Positions 41 to 1,698 of a stretch of 13,992 nt of DNA are shown here, in pieces. A program made the translations under genes and the position numbers. Source of the stretch: Pseudomonadota bacterium (GTDB lineage: Bacteria > Pseudomonadota > Gammaproteobacteria > SZUA-229); assembly GCA_030673345.1 (NCBI GenBank), contig DAOVJH010000007.1, forward strand, positions 1 through 13,992, read 5' to 3'. The first letter of the stretch is position 1. Every line of letters starts with the position of its first letter. Below the pieces are notes generated by a model, which searched no databases, was not told the origin of the DNA, and worked only from the letters and a program-made list of their open reading frames with translations.

Positions 41-76
41 GTTTTACGCCTGATTTATCAGGGCATTGAATTTGAG

Positions 77-108
77 AGCCGGGCTGACTGTGTCAGTCCG
101 GCTTTTTT
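77..108 (+). terminator. Rho-independent terminator after rpsT
   Basis: A 12-pair stem (77-88 with 92-103, one G-T pair at 83/97) closes a 3-base TGT loop and runs straight into six T residues (103-108). It is well placed to end the rpsT transcript. Confidence 0.93.
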
Positions 109-123
109 ATTGGTCTGTTTATT

Positions 124-153
124 TGTAGGAGCGGAATTTTATTCCGCGATCTT
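124..153 (+). repeat. REP-like palindrome, compact copy
   Basis: GCGGAAT (131-137) and ATTCCGC (141-147) form a 7-pair stem with a 3-base loop, flanked by TGTAG before and GATCTT after. The GTAGGAGCGG...CCGCGA pattern is typical of the REP family common in Pseudomonas and other gammaproteobacteria. It forms the left outer end of the larger fold-back element. Confidence 0.75.
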
Positions 154-384
154 GTTGCAGGTTTAACTAAAGTTGCTTGAGTTACGGTTAGGTTGAATAA
201 TATTTACGATTTTAATTTGGCTTGGCATTGCGGTATTCGCACCGCAGGCGAGTCACTTTTTTGCTACAGCCCAAAAGAGTGCCTCGCCGGTGGGGCGAGA
301 CCCACAAAGCTCAATTAAAAACCTACTGTAACTATTGCTCAGCCAGGCTCTAATTCAAGCTACTTTAGCTAAACCTAAAACCAA

Positions 385-480
385 AAGATCGCGGAACTAG
401 ATTATTCAGCATATCCTTATGCTTCACCCCTTCGGGGCTTACGTGAAAAACTTTTCCAGAAAGTTTTTTCCGCTCCTACA
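385..480 (-). repeat. REP-like palindrome split by a structured 71-base insertion
   Basis: The same two half-sites as in the compact copy at 124-153 occur here in inverted orientation (385-396 and 468-480), but 71 bases separate them instead of 5. The inserted stretch (397-467) can form three successive hairpins: 408-413 with 418-423 (6 pairs), CCCC/GGGG at 427-437, and an A/T-rich stem 446-454 with 460-468 (9 pairs). The half-sites GCGGAA (391-396) and TTCCGC (468-473) can close the whole as a multi-branched fold. Base 468 is shared between the last hairpin and the closing stem, so one of them loses a pair. Confidence 0.7.
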
Positions 481-561
481 GGTGAGCGTATCGTCCGCGG
501 TGTGAGAAGCGCAATCTATCAGAAGTAATGAAGAGTTAGAGATTAAGCGCAAGAGAAAAAA

Positions 562-1698
562 TCATAAAAGCACTAGGTTATCCCGATGTATCAACTCCGC
601 CTCATCAACATAACCCAGGATGCTTTCAAATTTCTCACTGGTCTCGCCCTTAAGTTTCAAGCTTTCTTTACTGTCATAATTAACCAGTCCGCGAGCGATC
701 TCATTACCATTATCATTGATAACAGAGACCACTTCACCGCGTTGAAAATTTCCTTCAACTTTGCTGACACCAACGGCCAGCAGGCTAACGCCGGATTGCT
801 GAATCGCTTTGCTGGCGCCCGCATCAAGAAATAATTTACCGGAGATTTTCAGCTGGTTAGCTAACCATTGTTTACGTGCCGACATCGGTTCATTGTCTGC
901 TGTTAGTAAGGTGCCGACTGTTTCGCCCTGGGCAATTTTTTGCAGGATATTTTCTTCTGCGCCAGACGCAATAATGGTGTTGGTACCAGAGCGTGCAGCG
1001 CGTTGTGCTGCTGTGATTTTTGTTCGCATGCCGCCCTGACCCAGAGTACCGCTGTCGCCAGCCATGGTTAGCAGGTCACGGTTACGTGCATTTGACTCGC
1101 TGATCAATTTGGCATCCTCGTTATACCGAGGATCTTTATCAAATAATCCCTGCTGGTCTGTCAGCAGAACCAGGGTGTCAGCTTCAACAAGATTGCAGAC
1201 CAGCGCGCCTAAAGTATCATTATCACCAAAGCGAATTTCATCTGTCGCCACGGTGTCATTTTCATTGATGATAGGGATAGCGCCTAAATCAAGCAGTGTT
1301 TTTAATGTGCTGCGGGCGTTCAGATAACGCTGGCGATTGCTCAGATCTTCGTGTGTCAGCAATACCTGCGCGGTATGAATATCGTGTTGTTTAAAACAGC
1401 TTTCGAAGTTTTGGATCAGACCCATCTGGCCAAGGGCTGCCGCTGCCTGTAATTCGTGCAGTGCGTGAGGACGTTGCTTCCAGCCGAGACGTGCCATGCC
1501 TTCTGCGACGGCGCCGGATGAGACCAGTAATACTTCTTTACCTGCGGCACGCAGCTTGGCAATCTGTTCCGCCCATGACTGAATAGCCTGGTGGTTAAGC
1601 CCCTGGCCGTCATTGGTGATGAGTGAGCTGCCAATTTTTATTACCCAGCGGTTTGATTCGGCTACTGCCTTACGCGTTGTGGTCTGGCGCGAAGTCAT
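562..1698 (-). CDS. proB: Glutamate 5-kinase
   Basis: ProB phosphorylates L-glutamate with ATP to gamma-glutamyl phosphate, the first and feedback-controlled step of proline synthesis in the cytosol. The 378-residue product has an amino-acid-kinase domain over about residues 17-265. It shows KIGSSLIT at 21-28, the SSGAVAEG loop at 60-67, the substrate segment INENDTV at 144-150, FGDND at 157-161 and GQGGMRTK at 220-227. A C-terminal PUA domain follows (about 288-365), as in the Escherichia coli enzyme. The N terminus is about 15 residues longer than usual. The ATG is fixed by a 4-base ATGA overlap with the obgE stop codon, so translation is probably coupled. The partner proA is not in the window. 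No classical terminator follows; the fold-back element lies about 80 bases downstream. Confidence 0.97.

Follow-up and report, generated by a model that had tools for sequence, protein, structure and literature searches.

A REP-bounded palindrome of several hundred bases between rpsT and proB, probably a core-deleted member of a dispersed two-armed repeat family

Introduction

REPs are defined by a GT(A/G)G head followed by a short imperfect palindrome (Nunvar et al., 2010, PMC2817692). Inverted REP doublets that form hairpins, the REPINs, have been described, and a mechanism involving RAYTs (REP-associated tyrosine transposases) was proposed for them (Bertels and Rainey, 2011, PMC3116915), and there is precedent for GTAG dimers lying inside long palindromes (PMC3733652). 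Dispersed intergenic repeats such as R200 (320 bp) and R178 (101 bp) have also been reported from P. fluorescens (PMC2718517).

Here we describe a sequence at positions 124–480 of a 13,992-nucleotide stretch of DNA (hereafter the window), located between the convergent genes rpsT and proB in a draft gammaproteobacterial MAG (494 contigs, 85.6% complete). REPINs resemble this element in that they consist of two inverted REPs and a spacer folding into one hairpin, are dispersed and are accompanied in the genome by a REP-flanked RAYT; the element differs from them in its length (357 bp against segments of about 71–110 bp), in a spacer that comes from a separate structured family and in a REP whose loop holds a module of about 70 nt (PMC3116915). 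With the GTAG-tagged head–head dimers it has in common the outward GTAG, the stem-loop REP, the head–head order and the structured spacer, whereas the loops given for these dimers are of 2–20 nt (Table 1 of PMC3733652) and that of the right REP is of about 75 nt. Since its spacer exceeds 220 nt, against 20–100 bp in most published GTAG dimers (PMC3733652), the element is best filed as a giant REPIN/GTAG dimer, a variant rather than a typical member. Regarding the REP alone, head, outer stem and tail are almost identical to those of the Pent1 REP of P. entomophila, TGTAGGAGCGGATTCATCCGCGAT (Table 1 of Nunvar et al., 2010, PMC2817692). Compared by its published description, R200 is similar in size and likewise intergenic and dispersed (PMC2718517).

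Results

Architecture of the element

The first-pass annotation of this DNA had described the gene-free stretch as symmetrical over its whole length, and this symmetry is real. The palindrome arms align with a score of 58.5, against 12.5 ± 2.4 (maximum 20.0) in 300 dinucleotide shuffles, which bears out the long alignable arms that had been claimed; the best alignment is gapped and covers about 140–150 bases per arm. The perfect 13-mers at the ends (124–136 / 468–480), the inner perfect 12-mer TTCCGCGATCTT (142–153 / 385–396, within a 19-nt inverted pair) and the 8-nt loop near position 268 in the minimum-energy fold were all recovered as announced. The stretch folds with z-scores of −10.7 as single-stranded DNA, −14.9 as RNA of the plus strand and −10.25 as RNA of the minus strand, none of 100 shuffles being as good in any of the three cases. 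As to the symmetry of the whole stretch, a near-palindrome is indeed present, but it is interrupted on the right, where about 71 nt (397–467) without counterpart in the left REP divide the right REP in two; this separate repeat had been missed in the initial reading. No ORF of at least 60 aa occurs in 124–480, in line with the claimed absence of coding. When the window was scanned with 4227 Rfam families, none exceeded its gathering score (best 22.7 bits for a gathering score of 51), and the window together with nine loci gave no match at the gathering threshold. The following features can be distinguished:

74–106, plus strand: terminator-like hairpin 3' of rpsT, outside the element
124–151, plus strand: left REP of the GTAG class, head outward, with a TGTAG head, a GAGCGGAA/TTCCGC hairpin and a GATC tail (sequence, pattern matches)
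152–223, plus strand: left outer arm, pairing with 311–384 (fold, arm alignment) and recurring in other copies
224–252, plus strand: left H0 hairpin (GGCATTGCGGTATTCGCACCGCAGGCGAG) of the ancestral unit; most of the 63 long-form units align here, and some lack it or have other sequence in its place
254–281, no strand assigned: central H1 hairpin, CACTTTTTT-loop-AAAAGAGTG, present once and interpreted as what is left of two H1 hairpins after their fusion
282–310, minus strand: right H0 hairpin, inverted (comparison with other copies and long-form units)
311–384, minus strand: right outer arm (fold and arm alignment)
385–396, minus strand: inner half of the right REP, TTCCGCGATCTT on the minus strand (inverted repeat)
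397–467, minus strand: three-hairpin module of about 70 nt in the loop of the right REP (alignment with 25 other copies)
468–480, minus strand: outer half of the right REP, TGTAGGAGCGGAA on the minus strand (inverted repeat)
481–522, no strand assigned: probable remnant of an older long-form element, H0-like, ..CCGCGGTGTGAGAAGCGCAATCTATCAG (flank alignment with genome G011)

REP ends, inserted module and RAYT genes

The left end of the element, TGTAGGAGCGGAA-TTTTA-TTCCGCGATC, comprises a GTAG head and a tail separated by a short imperfect palindrome; at the right end this REP recurs in inverted orientation, with its loop opened by the 71 nt or so of 397–467. As in REPINs and GTAG dimers, two REPs of one class (124–151 and 385–396 plus 468–480) are thereby inverted with their GTAG heads outward, and fold and arm alignment place the doublet and its spacer in one hairpin. 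The pattern of this class, GTAGGAGCGGA N2-12 TCCGCGA, has 52 exact matches in the genome and none when reversed as a control. Moreover, a REP lies in the matched stretch at all 19 own-genome loci examined, which had been found with the window element as query.

The insert in the right REP is a dispersed repeat in its own right with three predicted hairpins, aligned in 26 copies, that of the window and 25 from the genus (L323-L342, L002, L004, L006, L013, L015). REPs of two or more classes carry it in their loops, and a few copies lie where no clear REP is present. It has the look of a very small element, either targeting REP loops or belonging to them.

Two RAYTs pass the NCBIfam cut-off in the genome, on contigs C122 and C53. 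The C122 gene (L032 1328-1993) has a REP pair on each side, i.e., four copies of GTAGGAGCGGATTGTAATCCGCGA, two of them slightly altered; written GTAGGAGCGGAT-TGTA-ATCCGCGA, these have the head and outer stem of the element REP. A RAYT flanked by REPs of the class, as known from REPINs and GTAG dimers, is hence present, although the loop-proximal bases of the two REPs are not identical. Because of this difference, the cognate RAYT of the element may be another than that of C122. The C53 RAYT is accompanied by a different REP. In the C122 frame, no usual start codon follows soon after the upstream stop, and the gene may be damaged, not intact, or use an unusual start.

Copies in the genome and in the genus

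A search of the genome and its relatives by similarity, proposed together with the initial description, was fruitful. BLAST with 110–495 gave 69 places in 40 clusters of the own draft genome (65 candidates, 40 scored); the match reaches 100 bp in 21 of the 40 clusters and stays below 60 bp in 15. Of the 21 clusters with the longer matches, 18 are no more than 350 bp away from the end of a contig, where repeats that interrupt assembly would be expected; the draft thus breaks at copies of the element, and the copy numbers are probably lower bounds. Across 58 genomes, matches were found in 23, the own genome included: 17 of the 18 of the genus, with G015 as the sole exception, and 6 of the 40 others.

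Coreless copies with both ends occur at C163 (444–683), C264, C101 and C378. At C316 (L157 211-257), a REP palindrome (5-nt loop, arms perfect over 21 nt) sits at the centre of a collapsed older shell, in the context ..GGGCGAGGCACTCACC-REP/REP'-GGTGAGTGCCTCGCCC... The neighbouring genes, compared by eye, differ between copies. For the C163 copy, the orthologous site was followed across 20 genomes, with matches in four including the own genome and none usable as an empty site. As a side observation, the L003 copy, located behind another gene (by eye, the end of an FKBP-type isomerase), has much of the terminator of window 74–123 in common with the window; the adjoining TTGGTCTGTTTAyT flank is also common to both, as if upstream sequence had been duplicated along with the element.

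The rpsT–proB site across relatives

In the window, proB occupies 562–1698 on the minus strand and the element ends about 80 bases from its stop. In two relatives, G013 and G002, the rpsT–proB gap measures 175 and 169 nt and the element is absent, while the left flank of the window is recognisable (89/129 and 104/130 columns, respectively). The comparison of orthologous gaps that had been suggested thus yields gaps lacking the element, but not base-clean empty sites, as both genomes have diverged.

The right flank of the window (481–571) aligns with the proB-proximal flank of G011 over 66/84 columns, covering part of an older element there, and it is on this alignment that the window copy appears to lie in or beside the remains of an older copy. 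The matched G011 flank adjoins a unit of the type termed R1 (see below). Such a unit is adjacent to proB in G011 and G009, the examined stretches of which end before rpsT; these are two of the 14 proB loci scanned with the R1 model, and in a further one (L058) two R1 matches lie about 1 kb away from proB. The other genus members have different sequence behind proB, uninformative on insertion. No promoter-like sites were found in positions 1–700 of the window.

The long form: two diverging units

Several copies of the own genome, and many in the genus, carry inside their arms a core of about 500 bp, made of two inverted, diverging units of about 200 nt each. The unit as query matches in 27 of the 58 genomes and in 15 of the 18 of the genus. 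In alignment A2, which holds 60 of the 63 extracted units (L119:547-835, L121 and L136, with insertions, gaps or truncation, are left out of A2 and A3), the fold has 37 predicted pairs, 26 of them with both partners changed in one or more sequences. When the structure is predicted on this strand, A.C mismatches occupy 108 cells and G.U 41, the long outer stem accounting for 99 and 7. Two short helices are reversed (H3, G.U 24 against A.C 4; closing helix, 9 against 3), which we put down in part to misaligned columns. On the opposite strand, the A.C cells become G.U; there RNAalifold gives −65.9 against −45.8 kcal/mol and, with the structure fitted to that strand, G.U cells number 245 against 12 A.C. 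Such cells are not independent events; nonetheless, the asymmetry in the long stem is large. Our reading is that selection acts on one folded strand, read from the element centre outward, and not on a cruciform, in which the two strands would matter alike.

Regarding REPs in 24 long elements (23 from sister species, one from the own genome), one within 200 nt of a unit is clear in 9, doubtful in 4 and lacking in 11; REP-like heads or tails numbered 13/24 under loose rules and the division into clear and doubtful was made by reading. Owing to these 11 elements and the 4 doubtful ones, a separate route of spread may also exist for the units. No autonomous version of the element was found, an ORF between two Gallionellales units (L264) being, by eye, an ordinary neighbour.

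The window copy as a probable core-deleted derivative

Window positions 224–310 contain the H0 and H1 arm sequence of the two-armed R1 family. R1 designates the covariance model of the unit, with an apical CTGTCTGAGC..GCGAGTT core; in the window this core scores only 5.8 bits (E 0.15). H0, one H1 and H0' are kept, and everything between the two H1s of long copies is missing. It is because the H0/H1 arms are present and the R1 core is not that the window copy is read as a deletion derivative, having apparently lost its core. By sequence comparison, the left H1 is continued at the centre of this copy directly by the right outer stem, an arrangement expected if the DNA between the similar stems AAAAAAGT and AAAAGAGT had been deleted. 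The first-pass annotation, which proposed a non-autonomous mobile or REP-derived element, was right as to a multi-copy, non-coding, REP-bounded sequence larger than an ordinary REP dimer; the core-deleted interior had escaped it.

R1 units beyond the genus

Among 369 genomes drawn from the class, R1 units were detected in 8, the own included, from 8 families (strict filters, 8 candidates scored per genome), and the H1 pattern alone in 7, again with the own genome. A pattern scan of named genomes gave at least 120 stretches, 80 of which were scored with R1; as these loci were chosen by the apical-loop pattern, their match rate is uninformative on frequency. Among the stretches listed, R1 matches are found in Oxalobacteraceae, Herminiimonas (a diverging pair), Gallionellales, Luteimonas and Marinobacter, among others; the matches listed also include one in a Desulfuromonadales MAG and weak ones in Bacteroidota and Firmicutes records, and those most like the genus units are L270 and L279, from Gammaproteobacteria MAGs. 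In Luteimonas (L274 3369-3823) two units face each other, unlike those of the window genus and Herminiimonas, which diverge.

Covariation was examined in A4, an alignment of 30 distant-genome matches chosen from the 80 scan loci and other survey loci, which includes the Desulfuromonadales locus L233 and leaves out matches from other phyla, among them L238 (Rufibacter, E 1.4e-4) and L268 (Acidaminococcaceae, E 3.7e-4), as well as the near-genus L270 and L279. Double changes affect 43 of 47 pairs (shuffle mean 37.5, as high in 1 of 500), 88.0% of the cells are paired, against 33.0–43.3% after sliding, and the covariation score of 0.668 is reached by 0 of 500 shuffles (0.150 ± 0.011). Wobble cells are again mostly G.U (83 against 18 A.C). 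The alignment was fitted to the R1 model, and all these values, wobble included, are biased towards it.

A permissive Rfam search of six distant loci returned sub-threshold noise only, and the R1-type unit of L132 overlaps a miRNA model whose cut-off of 90 bits it misses by far (36.7 bits). A plasmid collection held no match for the genus unit or the L175 unit; the L178 unit matched two plasmid records, from Variovorax and Burkholderia. Searches of the literature for the H1-hairpin and apical-loop strings led to unrelated papers only, and topic searches were likewise empty; going by literature searches and Rfam only, the unit is undescribed. A very common Pseudomonas intergenic repeat may have a similar H1 hairpin.

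TwoAYGGAY as an alternative core

The partner unit of L270 matches the Rfam family TwoAYGGAY (RF01731; 52.4 bits, gathering score 43), listed in 2010 as a probable RNA from human gut, Gammaproteobacteria and Clostridiales (PMC2864571) and proposed to bind CsrA (PMC4333381); in the parts of this literature that were available, no mention of a repeat nature was found. TwoAYGGAY matches occur in 20 of the 58 genomes, over the cut-off in 16, with 21 matches each in G029 and G045; there are none in the own MAG or in 14 control genomes, and the window has no match over the gathering score. Among 20 loci inspected (L349-L368, the best per genome), a GGTTAC H1-type chassis lies 3' of the core in 19, of which 10 were found by a script pattern within 160–200 nt 3' and 9 as a variant by eye, weakly in L358, L365 and L368; L360 has none. 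TwoAYGGAY passes the gathering score on one arm in 6 of 20 long-form loci, and in all 6 a diverging R1 occupies the other arm. The Rfam strand of TwoAYGGAY is the strand to which the wobble points. What links RF01731 to the element is that some long members of the family have TwoAYGGAY as the core of their second arm, with the H1-type chassis 3' of it; the window lacks it, and the common R1 unit has another core.

A role of the units as CsrA sponge was considered and set aside: CsrA (PF02599) has no match in the own MAG, a draft 85.6% complete, and the R1 cores are without GGA loops by eye.

Discussion

With its REP ends, its palindrome, its many copies, its presence or absence at the rpsT–proB site, RAYTs with similar REPs in the same genome and paired units in longer members, the sequence at 124–480 is probably mobile DNA. 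We consider it likely that it is a non-autonomous REP-bounded palindrome, an outsize REPIN or head–head GTAG dimer derived by core deletion from a dispersed two-armed family. An IS200-like RAYT of the HUH type would recognise the GTAG-plus-hairpin of each REP in a single-stranded stretch and move the whole element as a folded strand, as proposed for REPINs (PMC3116915). A deletion between the two H1 hairpins, with their common AAAAGAGT/AAAAAAGT stems, would have removed the centre of the long palindrome. At rpsT–proB the element would have landed in or beside an older long-form copy. Any effect on proB mRNA would be a side effect.

A wider proposal, which we advance tentatively and at slightly less than even confidence, is that the window copy is all that remains of an element from a mobile two-armed superfamily of Beta- and Gammaproteobacteria, each intact member of which has two units that diverge and fold strand-specifically, with a common chassis (GGTTAC-type H1 plus H0) and interchangeable cores, the new R1 or the orphan TwoAYGGAY. 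The fold, as RNA or single-stranded DNA, would be under selection, e.g., as a transposition substrate, and RAYT-type REP ends would be secondary, letting the shell travel after loss of the core. We found this superfamily neither in Rfam nor in the literature searched.

Among the alternatives, the one that survives best, while being on balance unlikely, is that the family spreads by an RNA or single-stranded DNA mechanism of its own, with the folded units as substrate and the REPs as later additions, having landed on the family or captured it; this is compatible with RAYT movement of the window copy. It would accommodate the 11 of 24 long elements without a REP within 200 nt and the 4 doubtful ones, a unit fold conserved across families and into Betaproteobacteria with wobble mostly on one strand, the REP palindrome set inside an older shell at C316 and the older-unit remnant in the right flank of the window. 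However, 9 of the 24 long elements have a clear REP, as have the 19 of 19 own-genome loci, no enzyme for such a route was identified here and the units may be passengers.

REPs affect mRNA 3' ends in general, and the element could be seen as a cis-acting RNA device, a hairpin transcribed from rpsT or proB as an RNase III substrate or 3'-end stabiliser and kept for that purpose. Its very stable RNA fold on both strands, its position between convergent genes and this general effect of REPs speak for it; we nevertheless hold it to be improbable, as the element is absent from the gap in G002 and G013, its copies lie (by eye) beside different genes, positions 1–700 show no promoter-like site and rpsT has a terminator-like hairpin of its own. 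Indeed, because this hairpin (74–106) is upstream of the element, the candidate RNase III or 3'-end role is not needed for rpsT.

Less probable still is an ordinary IS-derived MITE moved through its terminal inverted repeats by a DDE transposase: the short terminal repeats (13 perfect bases), the lack of a gene and the dispersal would suit it, but the ends are GTAG-hairpin REPs, the palindromy runs through the whole element and RAYTs are present. A chance inverted repeat or an artefact of a 494-contig draft, in which assembly can create inverted repeats, can practically be dismissed in view of scores far outside the shuffles and of related elements in 16 of 17 other genus genomes.

The core-deleted palindrome retained as the likely reading extends REP/RAYT biology from doublets of about 100 bp to composite palindromes several hundred bases long. 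Of greater interest is the family behind it. The element leads to a strongly covarying family without an Rfam model over threshold and ties TwoAYGGAY, an RNA of unknown function, to a dispersed multi-copy element in this bacterial family, in which its copies are to be read as parts of repeats and not as single-copy regulators. The strand used, the acting enzyme and the exchange of cores have thereby become testable questions.
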